Shown here: piece by piece, positions 19,701 through 45,659 of the stretch | Layout of the letters: every line of letters starts with the position of its first letter | Numbering within the stretch: position 1 is the stretch's first letter | IMG/VR virus record: IMGVR_UViG_3300028706_000008 | Location: 1-52,022 of that record | Source of the DNA: a virus | Length of the DNA: 52,022 bases | Reading direction: 5' to 3' (one strand) | Translations under genes and position numbers: made by a program | Notes under the pieces: model-generated | The model's input: only the letters and a program-made list of their open reading frames with translations | Databases searched by the model: none | Told to the model about the DNA's origin: nothing

Positions 19701-21541
19701 GTCTCATCATTATCAGCATCATATTTATTATACTGAGGAATTGGACCTTTTAGTGCAAAAGACGTGTAGTTAAAATTAGGACCACCTATCGCAATTAACT
19801 TTCTTTTACCAGCAGGTGGACTGCTAGTACCATTGTAAGAATTATACGCTACAGTAACAGTACTAGTGTTAACAACGTTATCTATAACTATCTCATTAAA
19901 ATCTCTATACACATCTACTAGACTATTAACAGAAACTTGCTTGTCTATGCCTCTATGCATATTATTGTATATTACGTCTATAATATCAGCATAAGGACCA
20001 CCATCTGCTTCTTGGTCTATTATCTCATCAATAGCCTTAGGTAGCATTCGTAAGAAAGCGTGGCCTTCGACATGATTCTTAATATGTCTACCGCTGTGAC
20101 CTATTTGAAAATCTTCACTTATGCTAGTAGGCCACGCCACAGCAAACGGATTATTTGTATCTGATGTGGTTGTAGCAATTGCACTAGAATACACAAAACC
20201 ATGATTCTCGAAAACGCTCTCATCTAATACCATTTGTCCTGTTCTATCTATTATCTGTGAGGAATAGTGGGGCGGTTGATATGGTTTAGATGTACCACTT
20301 TCAATTAACAAGTCTGCCCCTACCACAATAAAATGATTGTCAACACCAGCACTTCTAGACGTATTCAATGCTCCTATTAACCCATTATTGCTATTACTAG
20401 TGTTTACAAAATCTAAATGAATACTAGAAACTGTTAACGTAGGATTAGCATTTTCTAGATTGTTTATAGAATGTAATCTTAGTCTTTCAGGAGGTTTTTG
20501 GTTAGGTTTACTAGTTGAAGGCGTTATACCATCAGGATTCACTAGTATATTATACGGTACATGTGAAACAGCCCTTACCACAGTAGAACCTGATGATGAA
20601 TCTAATACTTCATAATCTCCTGAACTATAAGGAGAAGACGTGAAGTCAACAGTGCCTGTTGTTACAGCATTACCTGTGAGTTTAGAAGCAAGTGATTGAG
20701 CATCTACCTTAGTCATTGTTAATGTAGATAAACCACTACTACTTGCGTGAGCGCTATAAGTAAAAACTTCTTCAATAGGTGCAATAGGCTCTTCAAATCT
20801 ATACAACAAGAGAGTATCACTATCTGCTAAGGGGGCATTTCCGTCTACCATTGAAGTTTTGAAAGATGCGTTAAGGTGAATACCTTCTAGTGTACCTCTA
20901 AATTCTCCACCTTTACCCCCAATGTATGTTTGTTTAGTGGAGATTTGTAGTGCTAAATCCCTATCTTTGATAGATTGGGATGCGACTAATTCCCCATTAA
21001 TATACAGTTGTATTGCGTTAGTTCTTACTGTCGCTATTACATGTATCAAAGGTCTATGATTTTTATTAAGTTCAGTGGCATCGTCTCTGCTACCAACGAA
21101 TCTATTGTATGAATCTTGTATGCCTTGGTATTCGATATGTGGATATACAGTACCTTCGTATCTGTCAGTATCTAATGTAGCGGTAGTTAACTCGTACCTC
21201 GCTTCTCCACCATCTCCAATCATAAAGACTTCAAACTTAGCGGGGCCGGGTGTGTCAACATGGCCGAGTGAAAGTTTGTATTGGCCTTCTTTCTCTATTA
21301 TTGTACCGCCACAATCAGGCATTACCCACGCTTCTATTGTAAGATGTTTATTGTAGATGCCTGATGTTGCACCCTCATTACGTGTAGAAGAAGGTGCGTT
21401 TTCGGAAAGAATGACTCTGACATCATCGGTGCCTCTCGTCGTCTTATGACCTAATTCGCTAAAGTCGCCTTCGGGTACAATGATACTGTCAGTAATGCCG
21501 TTAAAGAAAAACCCATGATTCTTACGGCTAATTACTGTCAA
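4700..21541 (-). CDS. Giant LamG-domain tail protein, 5613 aa
   Basis: This is a single uninterrupted frame of 16.8 kb, about a third of the window. Residues about 10-245 form a concanavalin-like LamG/jelly-roll domain: LTIEAWVMPDCGG, then IIEKEGQYKL, then HVIATVRTNAIQLYINGELV, then YIGGKGGEFRGTLEGIHL and LLLYRFEEP. A second LamG-like start (MVLDESVFENHGFV) follows near residue 430. The remaining 5000 residues are Asn/Gly/Thr/His-rich beta-type sequence with scattered Trp and no enzyme motif I can assign. A reusable beta domain lies at about residues 4797-4860. The start is TTG with GGGGGAAGG about 5 bases upstream. It sits between a tail protein and the hub, so it is probably a tail-tip or receptor-binding protein that binds glycans through LamG. 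Function is inferred from domain and position. Confidence 0.8.
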   Translation of the reverse strand: MTVISRKNHGFFFNGITDSIIVPEGDFSELGHKTTRGTDDVRVILSENAPSSTRNEGATSGIYNKHLTIEAWVMPDCGGTIIEKEGQYKLSLGHVDTPGPAKFEVFMIGDGGEARYELTTATLDTDRYEGTVYPHIEYQGIQDSYNRFVGSRDDATELNKNHRPLIHVIATVRTNAIQLYINGELVASQSIKDRDLALQISTKQTYIGGKGGEFRGTLEGIHLNASFKTSMVDGNAPLADSDTLLLYRFEEPIAPIEEVFTYSAHASSSGLSTLTMTKVDAQSLASKLTGNAVTTGTVDFTSSPYSSGDYEVLDSSSGSTVVRAVSHVPYNILVNPDGITPSTSKPNQKPPERLRLHSINNLENANPTLTVSSIHLDFVNTSNSNNGLIGALNTSRSAGVDNHFIVVGADLLIESGTSKPYQPPHYSSQIIDRTGQMVLDESVFENHGFVYSSAIATTTSDTNNPFAVAWPTSISEDFQIGHSGRHIKNHVEGHAFLRMLPKAIDEIIDQEADGGPYADIIDVIYNNMHRGIDKQVSVNSLVDVYRDFNEIVIDNVVNTSTVTVAYNSYNGTSSPPAGKRKLIAIGGPNFNYTSFALKGPIPQYNKYDADNDETHHDSNIRDYHVTPSKESRVAILHVPRLAALTPSLSPFVEIHYNAIDLTGASMSGTVQPLLMVEKTVPSSDTLVSGSEYVYDSIIHAIGSGMTLHAPGGYIDVYASELGIDSPIISEHGLVGDTSEGYSADTEIDESLTPANYTPRNNTDSIQNGTPQAIIESVSATGVHESSFNKLYLNKIDKTKSLTDKGSYYRIEPDLVLDSGSAGQFDTGTVSSSSHIHETFDIIDNHILTGTNNGDFRIFIQPSDRRRSLQLSNVNISTTFNSATILYLLSRAKVRSIEESVGEDGGFTTLNCIGVGDSLVSRSIDFTGKGSPDSHIVKEIEPNAPVVTVTLGGPGQGAMDTRPVFQRSMLAHEAYSTRRSYAVTATKLVVPNNDTGTLHIKPLNNESEDLASWGTYGFPRYGRIHLQDGSSAKYTSKTGTTFVFAAAALGSGDFISNNGSEYLSIAKLLNALGYMKGPTSGTVTINGNFTIYNESGFGENSDLENGTTVNDRMHQTMNDVQHDYQLGTQYASTRALAEIPVFAEQFFHDSVGPNNAFKIHVDATHTAHTYNPSPVGRRQKSENELADREAHSAYSTAISNNTHVPSTSVIKWDATNLKLYVNDIGIFPAATTSASTFQDIDTQLRYRKVFLNSGDWAWYRNNPSSDGYLQIGLVNNSLYNMTEKFTEFLQPGVSVFIGGPVVDDSVRAISSDILTPSSDYENRDEYYYDAASVKTQGGNVDYGLRQYVSAVEFKAGPESNPHAARIDSKRATGKVLSATVTKLSAYNDKAITVTLSADDFVKFPNLGYDTLADASSATGDLGYEVQYNDNGTIYKYQYHGHIKTINSVATPKNSITLVLQSSGSTYPLVSYGITINNPLGSNYSNGHTNAMSASVGTPNNIFTVGDSIFIANGTNRGEITAVSSTTITVGGGITGTIGDDTVLYGHGLPDGIDITLTSKRRTILGTSVSAIVSDGSQYYRELKNSLNIDTNIAITAASAASSIEITNQAGKNVNNLHGINVKKDDIIYYYIDGSPDTIRKIGTVTKVTEANSDDEQTITLSATGPVIPSSAKLAVWIGDYEDKDAVLNATWINPYAQGGLRDGDTVWANMSYNNPHAVEGLFAKSRGVLNESQVWNAFDNGAGELDTTNPRDSIPLENFLIGNTCLETARNYVQHVNRTVEENYLALGLTSAQAPVVAYIDPYLSTDEHARVLLYNVAHDKEFIAFQDIHMQVQTSSQATQIGWPKEVVESGDTSRTELHKVNAAYNGSGPSPWTTQIDVTNGFLSQNPYIRSTQQSKYIESAYAHDLANRHTNDLLDSSTIDSLTEVDSEPALPTDGRKIEGARLYGKAHGHHVHTGYSYGGEVSGLSTGYSLTPRTNDSVVLFKIANPLHSFSRIPNNNVSVYVEELSSLRTDTTGCSLRDPSTFFDTPDGTRVIPAFLCLKGIRNTTLDLSSHGESRLQHLPQWKDMDFIRRLTIDLGVVSQKDSVVNTLAGAEEIVRLVNQHAALTARVQTGSAHDPSPFWDTDNGDRGTHMGYIRAHIGREVQDLNGNVGYTIVLHSTVPGASGRNFCAWLDNSNGQTSYQPQFLVGHGGRWRNFWALPDEREGENMHPAPMPLNKHGRPFAPITTLQQYITSSNSGEDVISVADYDDNAVMRAVSDSISGKGHNTINTESLDIKGSSSSLIKGLRTGTNAIGRINFGGLVASGVPGWSPHAGKWGCGEQNSNSYTKRYGTLSTTTYSSYIPTKDISSDVVGNEPIYGFRFKNNIGADSGVRFIYKKIGDAFANNNTSLPNTIDDEVCVFFDDRDVAQGGFTIGKHVQGSGDITGRMEIASTTTIDGSSVNITTTEHNWLGGKWRGVPSPDCTILVDDIVLSGTKLTITHKVPFTTSFGSDKLGYYGFPKENGVIHISGYKETNAPSAVANLGYTASYTYRDGDVFYGVQGITSTQLATMNEFYQISSSANWTCLLTDEIMAAVTAAAINAGEEINTEDGLTFDCTNMYAADGKTLGEWGVSPNAIKIRSYDTKNKIKPLSKSFTATLHQDQGIKAAHLEFGEIEKAVRPSGTADWTFGTSRAVTDTLIDDSSRNVDCGYIPYTLLQINTLAKGSNANTATPVLVDSQNVPVDINNWSEGLRGVQFTRSCGDHILPKIDNPHVIIDVSESASFGLRADLTHRAYHLMIPYYRPSPTPSLVSAPERKRIWISSTKSIVATAKGMLTSSDVTTLEWVADTATENWPTAQGSIDLLTSLYASTDNTREFDGLRSIGSVFSEPIVYFRGGKSSKDHSVPLFFGGGFSGVTLDVNDGTTNDYSSFYTHPYANGPTGVTGLQNANEISTSYAMLDGNAMFAFFPGAALCNQHRGSITPPAFNQQNILAPDLGKGGDPSKGGVTYGTGEIKAKPVPLVLRFAHPTARYEDHADGTDSKTTYLIFGPGQAFPFTQEVADADSGNAANTKEPFPGRVIVSGNTWASIPLDETIADSRHVFPNHIVNEKYNFMPPSKVYYDATAGFHWRAMVNWESPAGYCWKGKFSQRPEHGRHYGQQFNDSTPYDVTGTAQIGYDLTHIHPKIHTPTIGFGITMAADTVWHMDGGFHPGGSWLDNQITFNPPHVGKSAARVLSSNWERANQIHPTAFRTSGVLTGRILDYIGNGSEAVATADAKMEYIVVDATRCQNGEELATVLGAAINAFPGAGALKSLGGTHMPSMGNAMRQDRYGWIPLAGESNYVNDSATGNYVDSPANSSQTTLEQLPASGWIRLHQGTNTRFACYHSREVLADSSDWKVRFYLAPNRIDGLNKIEAPETWEKHIDNDGTAFTDSISSSYTLYVWSKAGTMRFNNENVSARDHMTQVHFSGIVDAVDRTKPIGAVGWHGERYSYLNSLKISTTITKNTSSTTTSGYAAGLGAYHEMLNFSPYGTAGTVMNVHSNIPVVAPMQGSPESTPTIDGIGDALGRHITKTYFYEKYNLITNGGGGWDTSLDTDVNTSNNQGYRFTDTDATGNDNQWVAPTNYTTTLPKELTTPQGLYSSAFLVVSYECESSLIAKFDRDGITANGDWLQIIGQGSNPITYAGTTQWDERFHGQDRFIAPANAGPNVEALIVEGTTVPVGDGGGNWADTTFSGGSGTYFHSATPTDLLLKNATPGLNKTGDLLFDLDHSVGSALLHTDDAERNTSADKYAAAHSSGFPVNYWMGDVNALQMYQDSAAKNFSVENIVWKRMDGGNLSMPAINARGLGAVPWMTRVNSNTAYQTGEKIYGNVRFSFETTNSAMLPILQAQELAHPELMRKHPYKIGNVLNIPNEEIQFQSITVRDETGQVHKIEGGSPLGTIIRGFRVPENRGVKGNAPALANSGKIPNLKVQLPDPNSIPGNIVVRSGFDPIQAYQHETIGSGGMMHPDMSESDIGHLFDNSVAGPRQAPTYENHNWERINPVTFDSELGAWNDNSPLQTSYELHDRTLFFHVTKMGHSHTHRYPTVYTHAGGVETDIVSVTAWDSSTNVLTVDATLDVQVFDAGFGTKEDTRKFLRVYNPTTDEGAVCTYIAQNDATIDVIGDVNFATFMAGQTVTNLKVVPSYYIPAGSNRFFAARRLSDHAEVSGNSPDMANTLYYVSGQTVGYDAYSKPVLTPMPFPRMGHHFVTPTMPMLPGHWAHPAYQNLYRRHLIDYQMTNGFVDSGLISDNATSTNKKAAVGTAIGTGAITENIHAMDAEINFSGINAAPSGPSDVHGGAFTLMFESGVKYDGYGILASSDGTSTTLAATVNKAGGHSIVLEAASEYTQGRHFPDPAEVGAYQIVIQPNVFDNQLIGYHNNSGAALTSQQINTVIGIKMDSNGNVDGAKGGLTLVLAKATQADVRGCEVFINEAILDISNDQGSQFTNIPPLMLYNHVGIQLTESPTFTRKGFPYSKMFSDATPAHTLHIPWWSILHKNAIKHNGSALSEATNYRKLSQYSPEDYYMFMRSTFGSVGSQLTINGYTSLYFDIYDKYNKSISLNPKCTVVSFNTNGTIVVDNANTFPMYPYYQQRIQYTGKNGTIYTKTLTSVSGDTAATINIPKTLTLGAKSGADGFWDNIYDDAILTLTHSYNTLPAGELLTNKRKSVFANILPDIINGNQDTYSNHVPDAFLCMWHPNLGRPNTYFSDNTSRSWKGNAVNKAAYNSLPEHFETIHYHDFTHAMSTGPFDYLIKRPSINKIGALSQFIDRTCDFTNNDATVAMDSTSLLVVGMGVTGAGIPSGTTVASITNSTTFELSATVSNGGLTVTNGALTFTEPTLNGFWPCGSRGGPHASKLDLYGMASTSWNVHNTSTSANFASNSNLEWIDSDDDGSYAVSAGIATGSMDEFRRRPYGYRNAVRQAYNRPRYDINSVRAVYEAGASGSAQNTTNYDAGPLIQTEDYKISNQANDGVNLQWSYGGGAGNNNVDKPTTYVGIMERQSNFTGMLNQDQEGWQVRYSDGRRMSRPFGTPVRTIRNPARTERDWWGDEEGKGETSLSVASQYYLIDWWGNERGEAVRRAPVRGFGIRPSWDCGDAYDNGSNTAHARIWNSGKPLFNLKGIANLTNGNITITDGYTIPRFGGVLNNINNANTNELVDVFAPVHSLRVGDMGNGRGVRYPTAFNEDILTELSTPVHKTGIVLSHNTAEPLFGDGLLRPRNAVLQADEVKRGISAKLGIDDFGLLKSEATVSDRVEEIIGTSVHKDVISRNSPRIGLDAQVVEGIEQNHVVINTEAHSLHTDRNIGQRVILEGAMQIEGSLADADYTSIGFNRQGAGSAVSAVHRYSHTNVFRPYGGSYIIETKSYAGLFNDLGWGVASLTGSNDTSNPYQDVNQYNTDTVRNNEEDNIVKFMIRPVRVLDAKHTEVYRIHNSLHSGSPQYVQNYLHATSGGKYGIFTYETENGRAPTANLTTGRSIPDGNGPYLPIFVFDHTSAFTTPLSYGPKLLGTGVTGFDSTSLKSSVSRVIISENTLQHHRSDAPRRRQEKDTDDELKRSDYSIKPRFSQSLHNKGHKGDVDFNVTDHSGDGA
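6962..7153 (-). repeat. Reused beta-domain module, copy A (in the giant tail protein)
   Basis: This encodes about 64 residues of the form C-(D/G)-(F/Y)-N ... VGMGVTGAGIPSGTTVASIT NSTTFELS ... NGALTF. The same domain occurs twice in the tail-tube-like protein (26254-26436 and 27319-27519). Copy A shares a nearly identical run of about 30 bases with the 26254-26436 copy, encoding SITNSTTFELS, so the copies are related at DNA level. Such VGxxVxGxxIPxGTxVxxI domains are common in marine phage structural proteins. Confidence 0.75.
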
Positions 21542-31676: not shown

Positions 31677-32846
31677 TCATTTGAGGTCTCTTACGCTCCC
31701 TTGTGCTCCGAAGAAAGTTGTCCATAGTTCTCCCATAGTACGGTATAGTCCTTCTTGGCCCAGTCTGTTGATTGCGAATGGGTCACCAGTTTCTATTCCA
31801 CTCTCAAAGTATTGTGTTGGAATTGCTGTGCTGAAGTGTAAGTAATCTGTATCTAGGTAGTAAACTCTTGATAGTGTGTCTGCTGCCATGTTCTTTGTAG
31901 GAATGATTGGTACACCGTTGTATGTTGCTACGATGAAACCAGCCTCGATTCCGGGTACACCCTTTACACCGTTGTAGGTAGGGGTAACTCTCTTCTCTTC
32001 CATGAACCTCTGTTGTGATTGTAGAAGTTGCTGGATTCTCATTAGAGTATCATATCCAGTTAACATAACTTTCGGGTTTCCACCACGAATCCACATCTTT
32101 TGGAACATCTCATCTAATAAGTCTAGAGAAAGTGTTCTATCGGTTTGCGTCCCACCTACTGCGTTTACACTCATTTCAGCGTTAGACCATGTATTTGCAC
32201 TTCTGCTAATACTGTATATGTCTAGGTCACCGTTTGCGTTTATTGCATCACCGTCTGTACTTAGTCCAGTCTTAGATGCAGCACCGGCAGCGTATCCAGC
32301 AGTAACTCGGTCAAGAGACTCGAAATTATTGCCTGCTACTGTGTCAACGTCACCACACATCATCTTATTGATGACTTCTGCGTGATGTTTACCCATTTCC
32401 TCTTTCATGACTGAGCGAATATCGCCCATTCCGTCATCCTTGTCAGCAAGGAAGATAGCAGTTTCAGACATATCGAATGTGTGAGCGATAGTCTTAGGTT
32501 TTGCTGCCACATGTTGGAATGCTGGTTTAATAGTTTCAGGTAGTGTGCCGTTCTCAGCAATACCGCTACCAGCAATTGCTCCGCTGTTTGGCCTATCGGT
32601 GATAACTCGCCATCCACTTCTATCCCATGGTTTCTTTGGTAGGATAGAGAATGCGTTAAATTCTTGATTTAATTGTGACCATACTTTGCGACCATAGATT
32701 GCTTGGTATGTACCACCTGTTGTTGACAGCATAGGGCTGTCGGCCTTGAGTAATTCACTACCTGAGTATGAGTAACCCATTGCGTTACCTGCTCCATAGT
32801 AGTATCTTTCCATGTCTGTTATTGTTCGTACGTAATTTCGTGCCAT
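31677..32846 (-). CDS. Major capsid protein, HK97 fold, 389 aa
   Basis: The gene follows the prohead protease directly, the standard arrangement. The sequence has an N-terminal region with FSILPKKPWDRSGWRVITDR, an extended arm or E-loop candidate, a long helix (MKEEMGKHHAEVINKMM), a P-domain segment (LLDEMFQKMWIRGGNPKVML) and C-terminal strands (PGIEAGFIVATYNGVPIIPT, then VYYLDTDYLHF). These are typical of archaeal and bacterial HK97-fold major capsid proteins of about 390 residues. No large N-terminal delta domain is obvious, in line with scaffolding supplied separately by the protease-scaffold gene and its paralogue. GGAGATG precedes ATG 32846. Confidence 0.85.
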   Translation of the reverse strand: MARNYVRTITDMERYYYGAGNAMGYSYSGSELLKADSPMLSTTGGTYQAIYGRKVWSQLNQEFNAFSILPKKPWDRSGWRVITDRPNSGAIAGSGIAENGTLPETIKPAFQHVAAKPKTIAHTFDMSETAIFLADKDDGMGDIRSVMKEEMGKHHAEVINKMMCGDVDTVAGNNFESLDRVTAGYAAGAASKTGLSTDGDAINANGDLDIYSISRSANTWSNAEMSVNAVGGTQTDRTLSLDLLDEMFQKMWIRGGNPKVMLTGYDTLMRIQQLLQSQQRFMEEKRVTPTYNGVKGVPGIEAGFIVATYNGVPIIPTKNMAADTLSRVYYLDTDYLHFSTAIPTQYFESGIETGDPFAINRLGQEGLYRTMGELWTTFFGAQGSVRDLK

Positions 32847-32875: not shown

Positions 32876-33694
32876 TCACTCAAAAGCCTTAGATGCCAAG
32901 TTATGAACTTCATCCCATGACATTTTTGCTAAATCTTCTGTTGAAGGAACTGTTAGTGTTGGTGCATCAGCATCCGATTTTGTGATTTGCTCTCCAGTTT
33001 CTGTTGGAGTGGTGATTGCTTCAATACGCTCCGAAAGTGCGCTGATTGCTTTGTTTATCTCATCTAGTGGTCCACGTGCATCATATGCTGCTGCTTCTGC
33101 TTTTGCAACTTCTGTTGTACGCTCTGACGCATATCGAGATGCGAAATCATTTTCTAGAGAGCCACGGAACTCTTCTTCAAGAGCCGCTGCTTTGTATACT
33201 TCATACGCAGACTCAATGTCTGAGTCTGTAAGTGATGCTGGGTTAATGAAATCTGATTTCTTCACTCCACCGCCTGTGGTTGCTGCGATAGCACCGGTTG
33301 ATGGGTTTCCACCTTCTTGTGTTCTACCCGGTGCTTGACCAGTTAGACCTTTGTGGTTAGCCTGAATTTCTTCAGGTGTAGAGCCTAGGTTGGCTTTCTC
33401 TAAGTCGTCGAAGTGAGTACGTGCCTCGGCAGTATTTACTCCAGCACTCTTTAGAGTGTCTTCCATCCAGTTAAGGTAATCAGAAGTAATTACATCAGAG
33501 TATTCTGACTTTTCTACTTCCTCTACTGCCGCTACTTCTTCTTTCTTCTTGTCATCTTTCTTATCGTCGTCTTTCTTCTCTTCAAGGAAAGCAGGTTTTT
33601 CGCCCTTTTCCATATCGTCAAGCCGACCTTCTAAACGCGAAAGTACGCTACCAAGTTGTTTCATCATTTCATTATCATTTTCTGTTTCTGTCAT
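32876..33694 (-). CDS. Nested scaffold protein from internal start, 272 aa (proposed)
   Basis: Inside the protease-scaffold gene, ATG 33694 (Met182) begins MTETENDNEM and is preceded by GGAAGTGA with a 5-base spacer, one mismatch from GGAGGTGA. It lies at the protease/scaffold boundary. The paralogous separate gene at 40801 starts with the same codons (ATGACAGAAACAGAA). Nested scaffolds of this kind are known, for example lambda Nu3 within C. The internal start has not been tested. Confidence 0.5.
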   Translation of the reverse strand: MTETENDNEMMKQLGSVLSRLEGRLDDMEKGEKPAFLEEKKDDDKKDDKKKEEVAAVEEVEKSEYSDVITSDYLNWMEDTLKSAGVNTAEARTHFDDLEKANLGSTPEEIQANHKGLTGQAPGRTQEGGNPSTGAIAATTGGGVKKSDFINPASLTDSDIESAYEVYKAAALEEEFRGSLENDFASRYASERTTEVAKAEAAAYDARGPLDEINKAISALSERIEAITTPTETGEQITKSDADAPTLTVPSTEDLAKMSWDEVHNLASKAFE

Positions 33695-34237
33695 TTTATT
33701 CACTTCCGTGTTGTTATCTTCTTTTAGTATGCTAAATGTTGCTTCGGGATTGATGCCTTTTTCACAAATCGTTATTTCATGAAGTTCCAGTTTGCTTATT
33801 TCTTGGTAGTCTCCTCGTTTTGGGTCTGATTTTCTGACTCTTTTAAACGCTTGACCACCGATACTGAATCCTCTGAGAACGCCTTTTCTGATTTCTGCTG
33901 AAACCTCTTTTGCTTTCTCGATGTCGTCTCGTAATTTTACAACTACAAACATTCCGACATCATCGACTTCGCTTTTCCACAACCTCCCTTCATTATCTGT
34001 GTAATTCGGTACAACGTCTCCAATTTGTATATTACTGTGAGCCAATTGAACATTTCTGTATGACGGATTTTCCATGAATTTCCGAAATGCGTGTTTCAAT
34101 GCCTCCTTTGTTATTACGTCGCCTTGCTTGTCTACAACTTCAACGCTGGCATAACCAGCAACGATGAGGTCATTAGCACCCTTGAGGATACTAATTGGGC
34201 CATCGCCGTTTCTGAATAGTTGTTGACTACCGAGCAC
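32876..34237 (-). CDS. Prohead protease-scaffold fusion, 453 aa
   Basis: GTG at 34237 has GGTGA 6 bases upstream. Residues about 20-170 match HK97-type (S78-like) prohead proteases: VAGYASVEVVDKQGDVITKE, a likely catalytic His67 in QLAHSNIQIG, Ser125 in RGFSIGGQAF, and the LELHEITICEKGINPEA end. Residues 182-453 form a scaffold-like region: coiled coil (SVLSRLEGRLDDMEKGEK), a Lys/Glu-rich linker, then helices, ending with MSWDEVHNLA in the last 15 residues. The scaffold part probably interacts with the capsid protein and is digested on maturation. Met182 has its own ribosome-binding site, and the 40445-40801 gene is a paralogue of this half. Confidence 0.85.
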   Translation of the reverse strand: MLGSQQLFRNGDGPISILKGANDLIVAGYASVEVVDKQGDVITKEALKHAFRKFMENPSYRNVQLAHSNIQIGDVVPNYTDNEGRLWKSEVDDVGMFVVVKLRDDIEKAKEVSAEIRKGVLRGFSIGGQAFKRVRKSDPKRGDYQEISKLELHEITICEKGINPEATFSILKEDNNTEVNKMTETENDNEMMKQLGSVLSRLEGRLDDMEKGEKPAFLEEKKDDDKKDDKKKEEVAAVEEVEKSEYSDVITSDYLNWMEDTLKSAGVNTAEARTHFDDLEKANLGSTPEEIQANHKGLTGQAPGRTQEGGNPSTGAIAATTGGGVKKSDFINPASLTDSDIESAYEVYKAAALEEEFRGSLENDFASRYASERTTEVAKAEAAAYDARGPLDEINKAISALSERIEAITTPTETGEQITKSDADAPTLTVPSTEDLAKMSWDEVHNLASKAFE

Positions 34238-34282: not shown

Positions 34283-37200
34283 CTACTCATCAAGGCTTCT
34301 TTCATTAAAAACGCTAGACTGCTCTACGGATTGCCTCTTTTTCTGTTTTCTACCCGGATAATCTTCCGGCTTCTCCAAGTCCTCAGTAGGGCGCTTCTTC
34401 ATATCCCAATCGGGCAAAGCCTGCTCTGCCGTAAGAGAAGTAGGTCCACGAGGGCTTTCAACACCGCCCCCAACATCTATTCCTAATCCTCTTCCAGCCA
34501 TGTTACTATGGCCTTTTTGCATTTTATCTAAGGCTCTTTCAATTAGTAATAGCGCCTTCGCCATATCGTTTGGCTTCATAATTAAGTTTCTATCTTTCTT
34601 AGGTTTCAAGATGCCAGCGCTTTCTTCTTCTATCTCTTCTTCGTTTAACTCAGGTTCAATCTGTGTCTCTTCCCCTACCTTCTCTTGTATTTCAATTTGC
34701 GTTTCTTCTTTTAACAATTCAATTAAACCGTCTTGCCAATAAGACTCAAGGCTTTTTGCTAACCGTATAGAGTAATCCGAATTGGTTATTTCACCGATAG
34801 CGGCTACAGGGTTCACGGCCTTCTCATCTACAATATCGTATTTCACAACATCTTCGGGTAATCTGATGATAAAGTGACTATCATCAATCTCCATAGTAAA
34901 AGGCACATGGTACAAAATATCAGATTTAGCAAGTAATACCCACTTTGGATGCTTCTCTTCTCCTTTCATGTAAGTAGACTTTGCATCACGAAGCAATAAC
35001 TTATCAGAATCTTTACCCAATTCTTTTACCGCACCTTCTAGTCCAACTTCATCTGTAATTCTAATATCAGATGGACTAGGTATGAATACAGGGTGGTAAC
35101 TCTCAAACTGCCCTCTTAAGATTTTAATGCGCTCTCTTGTAGTTAGTTCAGTAACTTCATCCTTATCATATGACAAAATGTCATTAATATAGAAATCACC
35201 ATCATCCATTATTCCGTCAACAACATAATTTTTCTTACACGCCGCTTTGAATGAATCTCTTAATTCATCACTACAAGATTGCTTCACGCCATTTTCGTCT
35301 TCTATTGCTATTCTACCATTCTTTTTACTAACTTTACATCTTGTACCATCTTTGTGAATAGACACAACCCATTCACCAGTAAAGCCTCTTAATTCAGACA
35401 TGTCTTTAAGTTCAAAGATTCTATGTAGTGGCTCTATTAGTGGTATTTCTTTAGGTAAATCTGCTTTAGATACATTCTGATAATCATCACTTGGTGTTTC
35501 ACCATCAATATTTTGAGTCATTTGTGCGGGATATTGAGCAAAGGGTTCTGCATTAGTTAACATAGATTGTATATTTTCAGGCGAATGTGAATCTCGAAGT
35601 AAAGACTGTAGATAACTAAAAGGCACAGAAGGGAAGTTCTCTTCACTCATATTAGTGCCTACAACAGAGTTACCATCAAAATCGTGTTCTGTACCAATTT
35701 CTGCTTTTTTTCCACTCCAACCCCAATCCATTAGACCGCTGGTGAACTGGTCGGTTGGAGTTGCACCCTCAAGACTTCTAAGTGGTTTTACTTGCTCATT
35801 ACCCCAACCAATGCTGTGAATTGTTTTAGGTTCAACTTTAGATTTCAAATCAATATCAGGGCTAGTGTCAAAAGAAAGAATGTTACTAGCCATATCTTTT
35901 CTTCTAGCATGGTGATACTCTAATGACTTCCGCCCTTCTCTACTTTCGTGTAATAAAGTGCCTTCATTGCTTTTATTATGAGCGTTAGTTTGTTTACTTT
36001 TTACACCTAAAGGAGTAGGTGCTTGGTGATATTGTAAACCATAATTATCTAATTTTTGTTCTTGTCTAGCATTTTGATGTAAAAAGTCTATACTGTTATA
36101 AATTTGATTATTACCTATGAACTCAGTAACTGCTCTATCGTAATCATTGTTTTTAGTTGTAGAAGCCCTCCCTGCTTTCTTATGTCCTTCGGGATATACG
36201 TTACCAGTATCTTTTCTTGCAGGTGGAAATTTTCCACGAGCCTCTCTTAATGTATTATCTAGATGAGTGTGTACATCTCCATTTCCGTCTACTCCGAACA
36301 TTTCTTTATTTTCAGGATTCCATTGTAATCCCATTGTAGCAAGTTGTCCTAAACTATACCCATGTACTGGACCGGATAAAGTATCTAAGTATCTCTGTGC
36401 GTGCTCTTTATGCGCATCATCGTTTGGTAAATCTAACATTTCTAAGACATCGTTAACATTATGTTTACTAGGGTCAATTACATTATCTGTTACTTTACCA
36501 ATCTGTTTCATCCCTTTGGCTAAATTATATTGTATATCAGATGACATATCTTCTTCTTCGGATGAGTGGGTGTGTGCACTAATCTTTACATTGTGGTCTC
36601 CATTAACATAAAGATGTCTTTGCGCATCTTTTACACCTCTCAAAATATTTAGTAAAGCCTTAGGATTATCTTCATGGAATGCGTCGGGTTTCTTTTTTAG
36701 AATTGCAGGTGCAATTACTGTTCTAAATATCTCTGCAATCCCGCCTCTATCGCTTCCGTGAGCCTCTTCCATGTATTTTCGTACATTGCCAAAGTCGCCA
36801 CGTGGTTTGGATTGCCCTCCATATTCTCTTTGTCTCTTTGTTGCAGTTGCGTATTGTTCTTGTAATGGCTGAAGCATACTTTTTAGGTATTTTATTTTTT
36901 CAGGGTCATCTGTATTTTCAAATTCTTCTTGTATAGATAGTAACTCGTCAAAGAAGCCTTTGGGTAAAGTATCTTTAGGATTTTTAATATAACTAGATGG
37001 TAATGCAGTCATAACGTCATCTATATCATCACCTGTACTCAAATAATTAGGATTATTTTCTATATCTTTGAAGTTTAAGAATCTCTGCGCTGGGTTATTA
37101 GGCGGGCTAGTACTACCATTTACTGTTGCACGATAATGCGATTCACCTGCTAAATTTCTAACAGATGATTCACCTTGAATATTATATTGTTGTTGTTGTT

Positions 37201-39892
37201 CTTTAGTCAATTTACTATATTTCTCTCTCGACATTATATTTCTAGCACTTGTCTGAGTATAAGCGTTAGATGTAAGATTGCCCGTCAAATATTTAGTAAG
37301 TGAACTATTATACTTTTTATCTAGACCGTGTTCTAACAAAGGTGCTAAACCGGGAGACCGAGTATGGTCGTGGTCACTACTGTTTGTTTTGGTGTTTCTA
37401 CCCTTACCCGTTTTAGTTCCAGTTAAATTTTGAGAGTGTGAAGTTGTATCTGTTTTTGATAAAATACCTAAAGCGGAGTAATGATTTTGTTGTTTTGTAG
37501 GTAAGTAGTCAGAATGAAGGTGACCGTAAGCCCCCACAGTAGAAGGGTTTGCATCTATCACATTGTCTGCGTCTTTAACACCAAAAGGTGATGTAGAACC
37601 TGCTTTCAAGGTACTTATTCCTTTCTCCATATTATGATTTAATTTATATTCTATAAGTGACTTCAAAGTAGGTTTTACATCACCTTTTGATGTAAGACCT
37701 TCTGATTTAAAATCATGTAAAATTTCCATAAGCGTAGTAATAGGTCTACCAACACCACCTCGATTAGTAAATGACTGAGAAAACGGATATGCTAGAGTTC
37801 TGAGTTTACCTTCATGGTCATAGTAGTTTTTTTCTTCTCCTTCTTCTAAAAGAGGATTATCTTTTCTAGGCCCGTTCGGTGCTCTAAACGTTCCCATTCC
37901 ATTCCTTATATCTTTAGATTTATTAGCAATACCTGTACTTCTATCTATATTTTTCAGAACTTCTTTCATTATATTTTTTTCTAAGAAAGGTTTTTTTTGA
38001 CCTTTAAACATAGGATGTAGTGAGTTAGTTAAATCATTTTTATTATATCCTACTAAAGTGTGTAATCCTTCAGGACTTAAAACTACATCACTACCCGCAT
38101 GTATTTTTTTACCAAATGCTTCTTTCATAGTTTTACCTTGACTAAGGCTTTTTTGATATTCTCCTATATCTCTTGCATCAAATGGTGGTAAATTACTTTT
38201 TCCGGGCGCTATTGTTGTCTCACCACTTTCTTCATCAGTCGTTAATTTCCCTTCTTCGTATTCTAGTAATTTATCCCCTTCGTGATGCTCTTCTAAATTT
38301 CTAATTAACGCTTCATGGGCAGTTTCATCAAACAATTTAGTCTTTACAAGTTTCGGTTTATATTCACCAGTTTTTTTATCTTTTACCATTCTTTCTATAT
38401 ACTTAAAACGCTCACCATGATATGGAAAATTATCTTTTATTAATGTGTCTTTTAATGCCTTAGATACCACTCCTTCAGTTCCTGTTTTTAGATTGTCAGT
38501 ATTTGCTTCTATGTGTTTAGCCTTATTTGGGCCAGCGTGCATTTGACTTCTAGTCCAATGGTCTACTTCTGCATTATTCCTCATTTGCAGATTTGCTTTT
38601 ATTCGATGCATGTGTATTCTTTGACCATCAGGTAAAGTAACTGATTGATGTGCTGGGTCATCGGTACCGTGTTCGTTTATATGCTTCATGACTAAACTTC
38701 TTTCTTTTGGATTCAAGAACTCTAAACCATGATTCCATGTATCCCAACCCATTCCATGCCCATGAGGTATTTTCTTCACATCTTCTAACGTAGATTCACC
38801 ACGTCTGTCTATATTTTCATAAACGTTAGTACTAGTCTTAGGATTTATTTTCTCTTCAAAAATATCATTACTATCTAACTTTCTCATTCTATCATTAAAA
38901 TGAGTCTCTTCTAAATCCTCACCATCTTCTTCTAATTGTTTTACACGTTCGGGGTAATCTTTTTTCCATCTTTCAAAATCTCTAATTCTTATATCATCTT
39001 GATGATTCATACTACCTTCATGACCATCGTTACCACCTAAGAAAGACATTTTGTGACTTTCAGTACCTTTATTTATACCATGATATATACCGTGTTTTAC
39101 ATTTTTTACAGTCTTAAACTCATCTTCTTTCTTACCAGTTGCTATTCCAGTTTTATCCTTAATAGCCTCTCCGACTTTAACTAACTCTCGAATATCCTGT
39201 ACGCCTGTTTTATCTTTATTAGTATGGAAAGACTTGTGTGCATTTTCTATATCTTTACCTTTCTTCGCCCATCCAAAATCAGAAAGATAATAATTTCGTA
39301 ATGTGCTTTCCCACTCAGGCATACTGGTATCTACTCTTCTTCTACGCATAGGGTGATTTTTTTCACTAAATGGATTAGCGTCTTTATAATGTTCTGTTGG
39401 CCTTAATATGGCCTCATTTGTTTCATCCTTGTGGTCAAACTCAATCGTATGAGGGTTTATTTCAGGCCACAAAGCATGTCTCATTGAATCGGGAATTAAA
39501 TTTCTTTCGTGGTAACTTAGATAATCTTCACCATCTTTTTGTGGAGAATGTAGTTTGTAATTATGTTTTTTATTATCATTTTCGTTCCATGCACGCTTTA
39601 CTCTATTTTTCCATTCATGATTACTACCATACACTTTATCCATAGCAGGTCTATGACCGTGTAAAGTACCAGTCTCTCCTTGCTTTTTCTTTGCCTTAGT
39701 CAAGACATAGTTGCTATAAGAGTCACAGACTAAATCTAGCCCTATCTTATCATAAGTTATGTCATGATTTTCTAGATTTATTTTAGAAAGTAAGTAATCA
39801 CCGACTTCTTGTTCGGGATTAGTGTTATCAAAAATTGCTTTCATCAATTCAGTACGGTGTCTGATGTATACTTCTGCGGCATCTTCTTCCAT
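34283..39892 (-). CDS. Giant head-region protein with degenerate DNA-ligase-like domain, 1869 aa
   Basis: ATG at 39892 has GAGGTGAT 3 bases upstream. Residues 1-1450 are polar, rich in Lys/His/Asn/Glu, with no domain I recognise and many helical segments. Residues 1480-1656 follow the order of ATP-dependent DNA ligase adenylation domains. These are GEWVVSIHKDGTRCKV (motif I region), VVDG and FYINDILSYD (motif III/IIIa), TTRERIKIL, GLEGAVKEL (motif IV) and KWVLLAK (motif V). The motif I lysine of KxDGxR is replaced by His1513, with Lys1514 beside it, so catalysis is doubtful. The C-terminus is acidic, then Lys/Arg-rich. It precedes the protease and capsid genes and may be an internal head protein. 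Confidence 0.75.
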   Translation of the reverse strand: MEEDAAEVYIRHRTELMKAIFDNTNPEQEVGDYLLSKINLENHDITYDKIGLDLVCDSYSNYVLTKAKKKQGETGTLHGHRPAMDKVYGSNHEWKNRVKRAWNENDNKKHNYKLHSPQKDGEDYLSYHERNLIPDSMRHALWPEINPHTIEFDHKDETNEAILRPTEHYKDANPFSEKNHPMRRRRVDTSMPEWESTLRNYYLSDFGWAKKGKDIENAHKSFHTNKDKTGVQDIRELVKVGEAIKDKTGIATGKKEDEFKTVKNVKHGIYHGINKGTESHKMSFLGGNDGHEGSMNHQDDIRIRDFERWKKDYPERVKQLEEDGEDLEETHFNDRMRKLDSNDIFEEKINPKTSTNVYENIDRRGESTLEDVKKIPHGHGMGWDTWNHGLEFLNPKERSLVMKHINEHGTDDPAHQSVTLPDGQRIHMHRIKANLQMRNNAEVDHWTRSQMHAGPNKAKHIEANTDNLKTGTEGVVSKALKDTLIKDNFPYHGERFKYIERMVKDKKTGEYKPKLVKTKLFDETAHEALIRNLEEHHEGDKLLEYEEGKLTTDEESGETTIAPGKSNLPPFDARDIGEYQKSLSQGKTMKEAFGKKIHAGSDVVLSPEGLHTLVGYNKNDLTNSLHPMFKGQKKPFLEKNIMKEVLKNIDRSTGIANKSKDIRNGMGTFRAPNGPRKDNPLLEEGEEKNYYDHEGKLRTLAYPFSQSFTNRGGVGRPITTLMEILHDFKSEGLTSKGDVKPTLKSLIEYKLNHNMEKGISTLKAGSTSPFGVKDADNVIDANPSTVGAYGHLHSDYLPTKQQNHYSALGILSKTDTTSHSQNLTGTKTGKGRNTKTNSSDHDHTRSPGLAPLLEHGLDKKYNSSLTKYLTGNLTSNAYTQTSARNIMSREKYSKLTKEQQQQYNIQGESSVRNLAGESHYRATVNGSTSPPNNPAQRFLNFKDIENNPNYLSTGDDIDDVMTALPSSYIKNPKDTLPKGFFDELLSIQEEFENTDDPEKIKYLKSMLQPLQEQYATATKRQREYGGQSKPRGDFGNVRKYMEEAHGSDRGGIAEIFRTVIAPAILKKKPDAFHEDNPKALLNILRGVKDAQRHLYVNGDHNVKISAHTHSSEEEDMSSDIQYNLAKGMKQIGKVTDNVIDPSKHNVNDVLEMLDLPNDDAHKEHAQRYLDTLSGPVHGYSLGQLATMGLQWNPENKEMFGVDGNGDVHTHLDNTLREARGKFPPARKDTGNVYPEGHKKAGRASTTKNNDYDRAVTEFIGNNQIYNSIDFLHQNARQEQKLDNYGLQYHQAPTPLGVKSKQTNAHNKSNEGTLLHESREGRKSLEYHHARRKDMASNILSFDTSPDIDLKSKVEPKTIHSIGWGNEQVKPLRSLEGATPTDQFTSGLMDWGWSGKKAEIGTEHDFDGNSVVGTNMSEENFPSVPFSYLQSLLRDSHSPENIQSMLTNAEPFAQYPAQMTQNIDGETPSDDYQNVSKADLPKEIPLIEPLHRIFELKDMSELRGFTGEWVVSIHKDGTRCKVSKKNGRIAIEDENGVKQSCSDELRDSFKAACKKNYVVDGIMDDGDFYINDILSYDKDEVTELTTRERIKILRGQFESYHPVFIPSPSDIRITDEVGLEGAVKELGKDSDKLLLRDAKSTYMKGEEKHPKWVLLAKSDILYHVPFTMEIDDSHFIIRLPEDVVKYDIVDEKAVNPVAAIGEITNSDYSIRLAKSLESYWQDGLIELLKEETQIEIQEKVGEETQIEPELNEEEIEEESAGILKPKKDRNLIMKPNDMAKALLLIERALDKMQKGHSNMAGRGLGIDVGGGVESPRGPTSLTAEQALPDWDMKKRPTEDLEKPEDYPGRKQKKRQSVEQSSVFNERSLDE
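34928..35455 (-). other. Degenerate ATP-dependent ligase (nucleotidyltransferase)-like domain
   Basis: This domain region is within the 1869-residue protein, residues 1480-1656. Motifs in order: HKDGTR 1513-1518 in place of KxDGxR, VVDG 1557-1560, FYINDILSYD 1567-1576, LTTRERIKIL 1583-1592, EGAVK 1619-1623 (lysine one position early relative to EGxVxK), WVLLAK 1651-1656. The order and spacing match the ligase family; two lysine positions deviate. Confidence 0.6.
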
Positions 39893-41219: not shown

Positions 41220-42965
41220 TTATGCGCCCTTTATTCGTCTAGAGTTCATTAAAGCGCGAGAATTGTCCTGTCCAACGGAATTTTTTGGTCCGCGTTGTTG
41301 AACGCTGCTCATAGGAGAACCCATGCCTCCACTTGTTCTGTTCTGAGGAGAGGCTGGACCTCTAGGAGTTCTAATGCCCATACCTTCTCCTCCGGGTTGT
41401 GAAGGAGGCATTGCATTAGCCAATAATCCCGGTGGTTGTGCTCCCATTTGTTGACCCATCTGACCACCCGCCATTGGGCCGCCACTTCCGGGCGACATTC
41501 CTTGTGGGGGTTGCATACCCGGAGGCATTGGAGGTGCACCATCTTGTTCTTGATTCATCTGACGATATGTAAATCTAATATCCCTATCTCCTTGTTCCAT
41601 TAATTCAGGCTTATATCCAAGCATCATCATTCTTTGTGCAAGGTTAACTTCCATCTCATCTCTTCGTAGACGCGTAATTTCATCTTCTTCTTCATTTGGA
41701 TAAAGAGTTAATTTCCAATCTGTTACCTCCATTTGCTTTAACAATCTAGGGAATAACACTTGTGTGTATACTTTCTGACCAAACTCAACAGCACGATTAG
41801 TTACAAGAATCTGCATACCTTCGTTATTCAACCCGCCACTTTTTCCGCTATCAATCATAAAGATGCTACTAACACCATAGAAAGCCGCAATTCTATTTCT
41901 TAACTCATCTCTCACAGGCATATATTGCATTTCTTCTAGAGTGTCCATGAACTTGACCCAATTGACCCCACCTCTGCCTGTAGCAGATTCGATACCAACT
42001 TTAGGTATGTAGTGTGGGTCTCTTTCCATCTTCTCATCAACGCCTTTCCAAAAGGACTTCATTGATTCTAGATTATCAGTAGTAACAGAAATAATCCCCT
42101 TAGGACTCCTTCTCTTTTGATACGACGTATACATGTAGTTGTCCATTGCAGTAAGAGTCATTGCTTGTCTCCACATTGTATTTACTGGACTTCTACCATA
42201 CAACTTAGATGGATTATATTTACTAATATGTATTACTTCACCTTCAAGGTAATATTGTGTTTTACCGCTTCCGGCCATATTAGCATAATGTGCCTCTTGC
42301 ATATTATTACCACAGACTTCACAACTGTCATCTTGACCGGGGTAAGAAATTTGGTCTCTATGTAAAGGACAAACTTTGTATCTCCCACCACGTACACCAC
42401 GCTTATCAGAAATTATTCTCATAAATATAGGGTCTCCTCTAATTACTTCTTTTACTCTATAGAATTTAATATCTGAATCTTCAGGGTCTACGAAGTATTC
42501 TTTTATACAAATTAAAAATGCGTCATCTACCACATCTAGGTCTCTTTCTATTTCTTGTAGAACGTGCATAAAATCTTGTTCCATTGAGTTTTGCTGTTCT
42601 AGTAACCATTTAGGATAGAGTAATTGTTGTACATCGGGTTGTTTTAATTGCCCTCCACATAAACTACAATCTTCTGTTTCTTGTTTGTACTCTTCTCCGC
42701 AATCCACACACTTATGTTGGAATTTCTTTTCCCAAAAGTATCCTCTTCTAAATATCTCTTGACTTAATTTAGATATTACAGTACGTAAAATTAAATTTTC
42801 TTGTGATACCGCATACAGCGCTGGAATTGTAATTCCTTGCGCTAATACAGGCTCTTGAATACCCGTCGTATACAACGGCATCTGTGGTTCAGGAGTTGTA
42901 CGACTTCTGAAAGGACTACCTAACGCAGATATCAAACGACCTATTCTTCCTTGCTCTTCTGCCAT
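41220..42965 (-). CDS. Portal protein with two zinc-ribbon insertions, 581 aa
   Basis: ATG at 42965 overlaps the LAGLIDADG-gene stop, with GGAGGCGA 6 bases upstream. Portal features: the N-terminal clip (ILRTVISKLSQEIFRRGYFW), VDDAFLICIKEYF, GEVIHISKYNPSKLYGRSPV, a long helix (NTMWRQAMTLTAMDNYMYTS), RNRIAAFYGVSSIFMIDSGKSGG and GMQILVTNRAVEFGQKVYTQ. Two zinc-ribbon-like inserts occur, Cys86/89/100/103 and Cys199/His202/Cys215/Cys218. The tail from about residue 450 is Pro/Gly/Met/Gln-rich and disordered. It follows the terminase and LAGLIDADG genes and is the dodecameric DNA gate for packaging. The portal call is by motifs and order; the zinc inserts are direct observations. Confidence 0.8.
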   Translation of the reverse strand: MAEEQGRIGRLISALGSPFRSRTTPEPQMPLYTTGIQEPVLAQGITIPALYAVSQENLILRTVISKLSQEIFRRGYFWEKKFQHKCVDCGEEYKQETEDCSLCGGQLKQPDVQQLLYPKWLLEQQNSMEQDFMHVLQEIERDLDVVDDAFLICIKEYFVDPEDSDIKFYRVKEVIRGDPIFMRIISDKRGVRGGRYKVCPLHRDQISYPGQDDSCEVCGNNMQEAHYANMAGSGKTQYYLEGEVIHISKYNPSKLYGRSPVNTMWRQAMTLTAMDNYMYTSYQKRRSPKGIISVTTDNLESMKSFWKGVDEKMERDPHYIPKVGIESATGRGGVNWVKFMDTLEEMQYMPVRDELRNRIAAFYGVSSIFMIDSGKSGGLNNEGMQILVTNRAVEFGQKVYTQVLFPRLLKQMEVTDWKLTLYPNEEEDEITRLRRDEMEVNLAQRMMMLGYKPELMEQGDRDIRFTYRQMNQEQDGAPPMPPGMQPPQGMSPGSGGPMAGGQMGQQMGAQPPGLLANAMPPSQPGGEGMGIRTPRGPASPQNRTSGGMGSPMSSVQQRGPKNSVGQDNSRALMNSRRIKGA

Positions 42966-42966
42966 A

Positions 42967-44109
42967 TTATATCGCCTCCGCCCACTTAGTTATATCGTCG
43001 GCCTGTACTCCCCATTCCGAAAGGAGAGCATTCGACTTATTGGTGTCATCGCTCCAATTGTAATATCTTACCACTTTCTTTAGTTCTTCTTTCTTTAAAC
43101 CATCGTTTTCTTCAATATATGCAAGGACTGCTTTAGCCTGCGTTTTCTTCATTTCTAAGAAAGGTAATATGCCTTTCAGTAGTTTACTGATATCTGCTTT
43201 AGAATAAAACTGTAATCTATGTTGACTTCTTTGACCATCTTTGTAAATTTTTTGGTCTAACTGTAAAATCCCACAATCTAATGTTTTTTGTAATTGCTCA
43301 CAATGTATTTTACCTCTAGTACCTGTTGCTATGAAACCAGCCCTAGGTTCACCTCTACCAGTAATAGTTATGTATCCGTCAGCATCTAAAAATCCAGCAG
43401 CATATGCCCATGGGTCTTTTATGATTAACCCAGTTCTATCCATTTTAACGAATGTGCCTCTCGATGCACCTGCAATAATATCAACTTCTTCTCCATACAT
43501 AGAAAGTAATTTTGCAAGTTTCATAGATGTCATACTTTTATGTAATATATTTCTATCATGTAAATTAGCAAATAAAGTTCTTCCACTCATAACACCTTTT
43601 TGTAATAGAACTTCAGAACTTTTATTTATTGCTTCTTGCTCTTTATCAGTTAATTTATCCATTTGATGTAACGTGGCCTTCCATATTTTCCTAGCATCTC
43701 TTTTACCATCCATAGCAGCGACCCATGCTTTCTTCTGTTCGTCTTCCCACACATCTTCATACTCTTCTAGCATTTTCAAAGCACTATCTGCTTTTTCCCA
43801 TTGATAACATGCTCTTTGTAAACTAACACCACGAGAGTCTCCAAATTTCCTTAATGCTTTCATATTATTATCTGACATTCCTAATTGTTTAATCACATCG
43901 GAATATTTACTACACCATTCATGTACATCTATTGTAGCATCTAATTCCATACTCTTCAATGTGCGTATGTCATCTATTGCTTTATCAATAAATTCTTTTT
44001 CATCTTTGTTACTTCTTCTCGCTTTCCTTAAACGATAAACTAAGTCGGATGCGGAATAGCCTAAATTAGACTCAAACCACCCATCATTGTTCTTAGAAAA
44101 AGTACTCAA
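42967..44109 (-). CDS. LAGLIDADG-domain protein between terminase and portal, 380 aa
   Basis: TTG at 44109 has GGAGGT 6 bases upstream; the stop overlaps the portal start region. Residues 1-215 are helical and charged with no recognised domain. Residues about 215-345 hold a single LAGLIDADG motif (AYAAGFLDADGYITI, about 234-248), followed by strands with RAGFIATGTRG, LQKTLDCGILQLDQKIYK and RSQHRLQFYSKADISKLLKG. This is the fold of a homing endonuclease half. No intein splice-junction blocks are visible and the domain is followed by ordinary C-terminal helices, so it is not an intein. The fused long N-terminus is unusual for free-standing homing enzymes. It may be a domesticated nuclease or a DNA-binding packaging factor; that is inference. 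Confidence 0.75.
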   Translation of the reverse strand: MSTFSKNNDGWFESNLGYSASDLVYRLRKARRSNKDEKEFIDKAIDDIRTLKSMELDATIDVHEWCSKYSDVIKQLGMSDNNMKALRKFGDSRGVSLQRACYQWEKADSALKMLEEYEDVWEDEQKKAWVAAMDGKRDARKIWKATLHQMDKLTDKEQEAINKSSEVLLQKGVMSGRTLFANLHDRNILHKSMTSMKLAKLLSMYGEEVDIIAGASRGTFVKMDRTGLIIKDPWAYAAGFLDADGYITITGRGEPRAGFIATGTRGKIHCEQLQKTLDCGILQLDQKIYKDGQRSQHRLQFYSKADISKLLKGILPFLEMKKTQAKAVLAYIEENDGLKKEELKKVVRYYNWSDDTNKSNALLSEWGVQADDITKWAEAI

Positions 44110-44177: not shown

Positions 44178-45659
44178 TTAAGGTATCAATAGAGAGTCTG
44201 TTTTCTCGTCTCCCCTGAACCACTCATCAAATCCGGGCATATAATCATCTAAGAGTGTTACGCTACCCTTGAACTCTTTAGATGCCCAATTAGCAAGCGC
44301 AAGACTCATAGCCAAATCGTCATGAACGCCCACACTTTCTAACTTTCCACTTTTTTGCATACCGAATCTATTCAATTCTTGTTCCACTTTGTGAGTATAA
44401 GCCCTGCTCCTTTCATCACCGTATGGGAGTTTTATATGTCCTTGCTCAAATGCAAGAAGTAAGGACATGAAAAGAGATTCTTTCTTTGCTCTAGTAGTCA
44501 TGAAAACACGAATAGGCATATCTGCTCGTAATTCTCTCATTTCTTGTGCTAACATTCTTTGAAAGTTGTTACCTTCAAGTTCGATTAAATCAGGAGAAAA
44601 ACGACTATTTAACATGACCATCATTCTTTTTTGTGCCATAGACGACATACCTCTTTCATGTACAACATGGACAATTTCTTTTATTATTTCATCCGGTTTT
44701 TGTCTCATTACAGTCATAGCGGTAAAATCAGCATTTTTGTCAGAAGATATAGCGGGGTCATGTCCAATAAAGTGTTGACCAAATACACCATCTGCTTCAC
44801 CTTCCTCATTGTAATTTGTCTCTGCTCTATCTAAAAGAACTAATTTCGGGTCTCTACATTTTTCTAACATAGGGCCGGGAAACATACTGGCTACGTCATG
44901 TATTGGTTCACAAAGATATTCACGTGAAAATTGTATAGCGGGCATAGACATTCTTCTATGTTCTAGTGCGCCTAAATCCCATCTCTCAGGCCATAGCGCA
45001 ACACCCTCTTCATTTATCGCAGGATATGTCTCAACACGAAATGTTTCTTTCTCTTCTAATTCTGCATACAAATCATTGTAACTAAACGGAGTACCTACCA
45101 TCATCAGTTTACTGCTGTGGTGAAGTACAGGTAACAAAACCCCATAGAACCAATCTGCTGTTTTAGCAAGTTCACTGGCGGTAGTACCCCATAAAATATC
45201 ATCACACACTACTATGTCGGGGTGGAAACCACGAGTTGCACCCCCAACTGACTTCGCCATCATACGACTACCATTGGAAAACTCAAAGTAAGATTTAGCC
45301 CAAGGTTTGCCTTGGGGTTTCAAATGTCTTAATATATCGTTCCCTTCTATAATATTACGTACAAAGCGCATGTGTTCAAGAGTTTGTTCAAGAGAGTGGG
45401 AGAATATCATAACGTGGGTATTAGGTTTGTATGCCGCTAACCATAAGGCATACATCATAAAGAAAACAGATTTTCCGTGGTCTCTCGACGCTTTAACGCA
45501 AAAATACTGTGATTCTTCTAAACCTACTTTCCAAGACTCATGATGATGATTGTACAAGAAACCTAGCATATCTACAAAAAAATACTTGAATGATTTCTTA
45601 GACATCTCTTTATCCATATTAAGAATAAATGCTTCCATTTCTTCTTTACTTTTACTCAT
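44178..45659 (-). CDS. terL: Large terminase subunit (packaging ATPase/nuclease), 493 aa
   Basis: ATG at 45659 has AGGAG upstream and overlaps the preceding stop (ATGA). ATPase motifs: a Walker A-like ASRDHGKS (residues 57-64), Walker B DIVVCDDI (148-155) and a coupling GTP in MMVGTPFSY. Nuclease motifs: GHDPAISSDKNADF with a likely metal Asp, an acidic residue in DLIELEGNNFQ, and a C-terminal VGVHDDLAMSLALA pair. This is the complete two-domain plan of Caudoviricetes TerL, which pumps DNA through the portal and cuts it. Walker A lacks the usual leading Gly (deviant P-loop, common in terminases). Length is normal. Confidence 0.9.
   Translation of the reverse strand: MSKSKEEMEAFILNMDKEMSKKSFKYFFVDMLGFLYNHHHESWKVGLEESQYFCVKASRDHGKSVFFMMYALWLAAYKPNTHVMIFSHSLEQTLEHMRFVRNIIEGNDILRHLKPQGKPWAKSYFEFSNGSRMMAKSVGGATRGFHPDIVVCDDILWGTTASELAKTADWFYGVLLPVLHHSSKLMMVGTPFSYNDLYAELEEKETFRVETYPAINEEGVALWPERWDLGALEHRRMSMPAIQFSREYLCEPIHDVASMFPGPMLEKCRDPKLVLLDRAETNYNEEGEADGVFGQHFIGHDPAISSDKNADFTAMTVMRQKPDEIIKEIVHVVHERGMSSMAQKRMMVMLNSRFSPDLIELEGNNFQRMLAQEMRELRADMPIRVFMTTRAKKESLFMSLLLAFEQGHIKLPYGDERSRAYTHKVEQELNRFGMQKSGKLESVGVHDDLAMSLALANWASKEFKGSVTLLDDYMPGFDEWFRGDEKTDSLLIP

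Follow-up and report, generated by a model that had tools for sequence, protein, structure and literature searches.

The giant protein encoded at positions 34283..39892 of the window, i.e., the 52-kb IMG/VR virus record analysed here over its full length, contains a domain with the predicted fold of ATP-dependent DNA ligases that has lost the residues needed for ligation. We consider it probable that, in magrovirus-like viruses, this inactivated ligase core now serves a giant head-morphogenesis protein as a docking or structural module. Because the catalytic residues are lost yet the domain is strongly preserved, the fold of an enzyme seems to have been given a task other than catalysis. The 1869-aa open reading frame (ORF) and its gene slot in the head module are kept in relatives; it lies on the minus strand, as do all features of the window described below.

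Predicted ligase fold of the C-terminal domain

The initial annotation had proposed a ligase-like domain in this protein, and the proposal was borne out by the AlphaFold2 fold, Foldseek and family profiles. The model of residues 1473-1734 (pLDDT 85.6, pTM 0.81) comprises a pseudo-ligase nucleotidyltransferase (NTase) domain, residues 1486-1656 (34925..35437), and after it a small beta/helix module, residues 1657-1734 (34691..34924), which was also recognised by hhalign and before which an OB fold is inserted in a sister clade. A Foldseek search revealed ATP-dependent DNA ligases in 50 of the best 50 PDB matches (best E 2.9e-8), with moderate TM-scores of 0.44-0.54, and the named viral fold matches were mostly ligases and capping enzymes. 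The ligase profile PF01068 matched the window protein weakly (E 0.17 with the full-length sequence and 0.0025 with the domain excised). It was matched by 33 of 38 family members, the NCBIfam ATP-dependent ligase model was matched by 43 of 47 relatives, and a family profile search of PDB sequences returned DNA ligases as the only matches. The PF01068 cut-off was passed in three related records, two of these matches being in the giant protein and the third in a ligase gene apart from it. The single-sequence signal is thus marginal, and the evidence for a ligase domain becomes decisive once the relatives are included. No match to the helical DNA-binding domain of ligases was found in the window protein.

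In the model, residues 41-44 (HKDG, residues 1513-1516 of the protein) form the turn joining strands 35-40 and 45-52, and this turn occupies the place of motif I in ligases; the nucleotide pocket was judged by secondary structure, profile alignment and Foldseek. The structure and profile comparison that the initial annotation had recommended therefore gave a nucleotidyltransferase match, with residues 1513-1518 at the motif I turn of the predicted fold. Model and profiles together indicate that the domain has the NTase fold of ATP-dependent DNA ligases.

Loss of the catalytic residues

Residues were counted in 102 and then in 146 non-redundant sequences, consisting of the window protein and its IMG/VR relatives. 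Motif I of the window protein reads HKDGTR (residues 1513-1518, 35339..35356), with its lysine altered as initially noted. In HMM alignments to archaeal ligases, the motif I Lys of the Thermococcus and Sulfolobus enzymes aligns with His1513. At this nucleophile position, which had been singled out for a check in homologues, none of the 146 sequences has Lys; the residue is Trp in 69, Tyr in 26, His in 14, Ile in 10, Phe in 7, Met in 7, Gln in 6, Leu in 4 and Ser in 3, i.e., aromatic or His in 116. The alignment of motif I is anchored by one subclade of 34 sequences that retains YDGxR, with Trp or Phe replacing Lys.

The initial account of catalytic decay held for motif I and was incomplete beyond it, as residues of motifs III, IV and V are lost too. 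The DGE of motif III has become DGI in the window (VVDGI, residues 1557-1561, 35210..35224, by profile alignment), and Ile, Val or Thr takes the place of the Glu in the family (Ile1561 in the window). The motif IV-V stretch LLLRDAKSTYMKGEEKHPKWVLLAK (residues 1632-1656, 34925..34999) forms the most conserved face of the domain and has lost the catalytic Glu and Lys. The Glu-Gly of motif IV is gone, and its Lys is not shifted, as had been thought, but replaced by the near-invariant Arg1635 (145/146). The two motif V lysines (W+2 and W+4) are Leu1653 and Ala1655 in the window; the family has Leu or Met at the former position and Arg, Thr, Ser or Ala at the latter. Kept instead of the catalytic residues are W1508, D1571 and RDxxSTYMxGExxHPKW, although the invariance of GExRHPKW and HRIF is partly ascertainment, because both stretches were contained in the patterns used to scan the collection, none of which included motif I.

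The suggestion that the domain could be a pseudo-enzyme is strongly supported by the combination of a ligase fold, the absence of the nucleophilic Lys throughout the 146 sequences, the loss of other catalytic residues and purifying selection. The sequences thus strongly support a pseudoenzyme without the residues needed for ligation, which most likely forms no enzyme-adenylate.

Head gene cluster, conservation and origin

The placement of the 1869-aa ORF between portal and protease genes, made in the initial annotation, agreed with the ORF calls and the profile matches of the neighbours. Upstream lie the genes for the terminase large subunit (44178..45659; phrog_38, 5e-64) and the portal protein (41220..42965; phrog_18178, 3.7e-67), the latter separated from the giant protein by three small ORFs. 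Downstream lie those for the prohead protease (32876..34237; PF04586, 4.3e-9, and synteny) and the major capsid protein (MCP; 31677..32846; phrog_24667, 1.3e-57). The order TerL-LAGLIDADG-portal-small ORFs-giant protein-protease-MCP was seen in the loci examined, and the protease was the next recognised gene downstream of the giant protein in 189 of 189 loci, which partly overlap. This gene position fits a head protein. The ORF between the terminase and portal genes (380 aa, 42967-44109) has a LAGLIDADG-like domain and occupies the same slot in loci of both clades, so that it seems to belong permanently to the head cluster, unlike a homing endonuclease of sporadic occurrence. Elsewhere, one ORF of 5613 aa (4700-21541) fills about one third of the window.

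The roughly 1450 N-terminal residues of the giant protein, to which the initial annotation could assign no kind, indeed have no annotated relative in profile searches; this fast-evolving part measures 1300-2000 aa across the family. A tblastn search of INPHARED phages with the whole giant protein gave no match, and the pseudo-ligase domain alone gave there no matches or only chance-level ones.

Among close relatives, dN/dS was 0.016-0.078 for the domain versus 0.1-0.57 for N-terminal regions; strong purifying selection acts on the pseudo-ligase domain. Within the window clade, conservation of the protein is highest in the domain region and the tail, and these are also the only parts strongly shared between the deep clades (hhalign E 8.8e-59, residues 1379-1834), with an N-terminal block at residues 295-454 (38531..39010) weakly common to the two (hhalign probability 86, E 4.9e-6). 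The C-terminal tail motif GLGID...ESPRGPT...LPDWD (about residues 1799-1829, 34406..34498), also aligned by hhalign, was present as a pattern in 184 of 191 homologous ORFs. The distance from the domain to the C-terminus is nearly fixed, the tail measuring 123-148 aa in one clade and, for most members of the other, about 240-270 aa. The C-terminal tail of the portal protein, GMGIRTPRGPAS, resembles the GLGID...ESPRGPTS of the giant protein; 52 of 135 portal ORFs have this form, which belongs to the window clade. The likeness may mark a docking or cleavage signal common to both proteins.

In the sister clade, an OB fold comes after the NTase part, the arrangement seen in true ligases (model pLDDT 91.2), and a Foldseek comparison of this NTase-OB model with the Thermococcus sibiricus ligase gave an E of 6.5e-14. 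The window clade is without the OB fold, the small beta/helix module following the NTase part directly, and appears from these comparisons to have lost it. Distances between the domains correlated with those between the capsid proteins (r 0.89; 0 of 999 permutations as high), suggesting that the domain travelled with the head genes. One related record of 102 kb, G004, has a separate small T7-like ATP-dependent ligase (L049, 1222-2361) with apparently intact KFDGVR, FDGEL and EGAMVR motifs beside the dead domain, which means that the two are distinct genes. The idea that the domain is a copy of the virus's replication ligase was unsupported, since the separate ligase of G004 differs greatly from it in sequence. 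Among the eight related records of 95-118 kb, the dead domain is the sole PF01068 match in seven, and in these seven no separate PF01068 ligase was found. No NAD-dependent ligase (PF01653) was detected in those of them other than G015, and RNA-ligase-family models had no match in any of the seven. These ligase negatives apply to records that may be incomplete and to profiles that divergent ligases may escape.

The MCP of the window is closest to those of the tailed haloviruses HVTV-1, HCTV-1 and HCTV-5, HVTV-1 and HCTV-5 being nearest. PolB, which is absent from the window itself, was found in eight related long records. One of the related records, G007, encodes PolB, a clamp-loader-like AAA protein, a PD-(D/E)XK nuclease and a Cpn60/TCP-1 chaperonin, and it is the one record with Cpn60; MCM models had no match in related records. 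Marine Group II viruses are reported to have PolB and a chaperonin (PMC5332604), and the presence of both in related records makes magrovirus-like a likely label (PMC12999244). The viruses are marine, archaeal-type tailed viruses and candidates for the order Magrovirales. GTDB genome scans revealed no relative of the pseudo-ligase domain, and a GTDB scan with the MCP gave one weak, uninformative match in a Poribacteria MAG and no link to a host genome. The domain family is found in ocean virus contigs, with 398 confirmed stretches in one scan.

Proposed role, alternatives and known systems

We propose that an ancestor of these viruses captured an archaeal-type ATP-dependent DNA ligase in the form of its catalytic core, which originally comprised an NTase part and an OB fold, and that the captured core then lost its nucleophile and other catalytic ligands and was retained as a conserved C-terminal module of the giant head-morphogenesis protein. 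The domain would most likely act in docking, as a rigid module whose conserved motif IV-V face would, with the GLGID...ESPRGPT tail, anchor the protein to a head component, i.e., the portal vertex, the protease or the prohead core, and the fast-evolving N-terminal part would fill the head or be carried inside it; the conserved tail may act together with the domain. The NTase part is acidic, with a median net charge of -5.5 in the family versus +8 for the true ligase domain of G004, which favours protein contact over DNA contact. We infer the docking role from gene position, charge and conservation, and likewise the virion location, the docking partner and the role of the N-terminal part.

Other readings were weighed against this one. 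A dead ligase core packaged at the portal vertex could clamp or bridge genome ends or nicks without catalysis, acting during packaging or after ejection and perhaps recruiting a host ligase. The NTase and OB folds of true ligases bind DNA, the sister clade retains the OB fold and the gene lies beside the portal gene. However, the OB fold is lost in the window clade, and the acidity of the family NTase part is a weak argument against simple DNA binding; we regard this reading as possible but unlikely. Slightly less likely still is the specific form in which the giant protein accompanies the genome in packaging and ejection, its dead ligase core serving at the portal vertex as a non-catalytic holder or recruiter for DNA ends or nicks; the ligase fold would then have become a component of the packaging or ejection machinery. 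It is known that snurportin-1 binds the cap through a capping-enzyme/ligase-like NTase fold without catalysis, and a sensor of a nucleotide or cap-like ligand, with an aromatic residue in place of Lys, would be comparable. The residue at that position is aromatic or His in 116/146 sequences, and the snurportin-1 cap-binding profile PF21974 was matched by 17-18 relatives, one of them (L229) above the cut-off (28.5 versus 27 bits); the window protein reached 14.3 bits. Considering that these matches may reflect the shared fold only, and that the Asp and Arg of motif I are variable, we judge a ligand sensor improbable.

Catalytic activity as a ligase or nucleotidyltransferase through some other nucleophile is far less probable than any of these. 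Lys1514, through which the initial annotation had thought ligation might proceed, lies next to the nucleophile position in the window, but only 10 of the 146 sequences have Lys at position 1514, most having Pro or Tyr. Ligation through Lys1514 is therefore not tenable as a function of the family, and this residue was rejected as a substitute nucleophile on grounds of conservation. Migrated residues are known from other pseudoenzyme families, and the SKWYDGKR subclade has a Lys one residue upstream of the nucleophile position, which leaves formal room for a migrated nucleophile there. However, the window has Ile at that place, and the motif III Glu, the motif IV Lys and the motif V lysines are all gone. 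Least credible of all is a functionless, decaying ligase relic. Lost catalytic residues would be expected of one, but the dN/dS values of the domain reject it, the reading frame is open in all relatives, and no other part of the protein is as well conserved across the deep clades.

If the docking interpretation is true, these viruses have a pseudo-ligase in the head module, widely conserved in ocean viruses, and a replication enzyme has been reused in virion assembly. In published magrovirus profiles, the replication genes include an ATP-dependent DNA ligase (PMC10160649; PMC12999244; PMC10768690). With the dead domain as the sole PF01068 match in most of the long related records, a 'DNA ligase' label could rest on a non-ligating protein, and annotators are warned that such labels in these genomes could be misleading. 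The giant, fast-evolving protein beside the portal and protease genes also offers a concrete target for the prohead biology of uncultured archaeal viruses.

The domain resembles archaeal ATP-dependent ligases (Thermococcus sibiricus, 4eq5; Pyrococcus furiosus, 2cfm; PF01068) in NTase fold and motif order, and the GxR turn of motif I and the Tyr, Gly and Trp of motifs IV-V also occur in the viral family; the likeness extends to the OB fold in the sister clade but not in the window clade. In contrast to these enzymes, the viral domain is without the nucleophilic Lys, the motif III Glu, the motif IV Glu and Lys and the motif V lysines, and it is fused to about 1450 unrelated residues in a head gene cluster. 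The m3G cap-binding domain of snurportin-1 gives weak to above-threshold Pfam matches in viral relatives, but snurportin-1 is a eukaryotic nuclear import adaptor without tail or head context. In HVTV-1, which has a related capsid protein, the 1313-aa gp115 (KC117377; L117, 6539-10480) is likewise giant, lies between head-assembly and protease genes and carries enzyme-type domains, i.e., an N-terminal zeta-toxin-type kinase and a C-terminal ADP-ribosyltransferase exoenzyme domain. These folds differ from that of the window protein, and gp115 was rejected as a homologue because a profile search found no homology; its comparable slot raises the possibility that this position more generally holds giant proteins with domains derived from enzymes. 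A literature search of open-licence papers yielded no description of a ligase-like head protein. The nearest published example that we found of a non-catalytic ligase fragment in a virus is the standalone ligase DNA-binding domain of jumbo phage subgroup 2.1, discussed among replication functions (PMC7824862). That virus, too, has kept a piece of a ligase that does not catalyse, but the piece corresponds to the helical DNA-binding domain and not to the NTase core.
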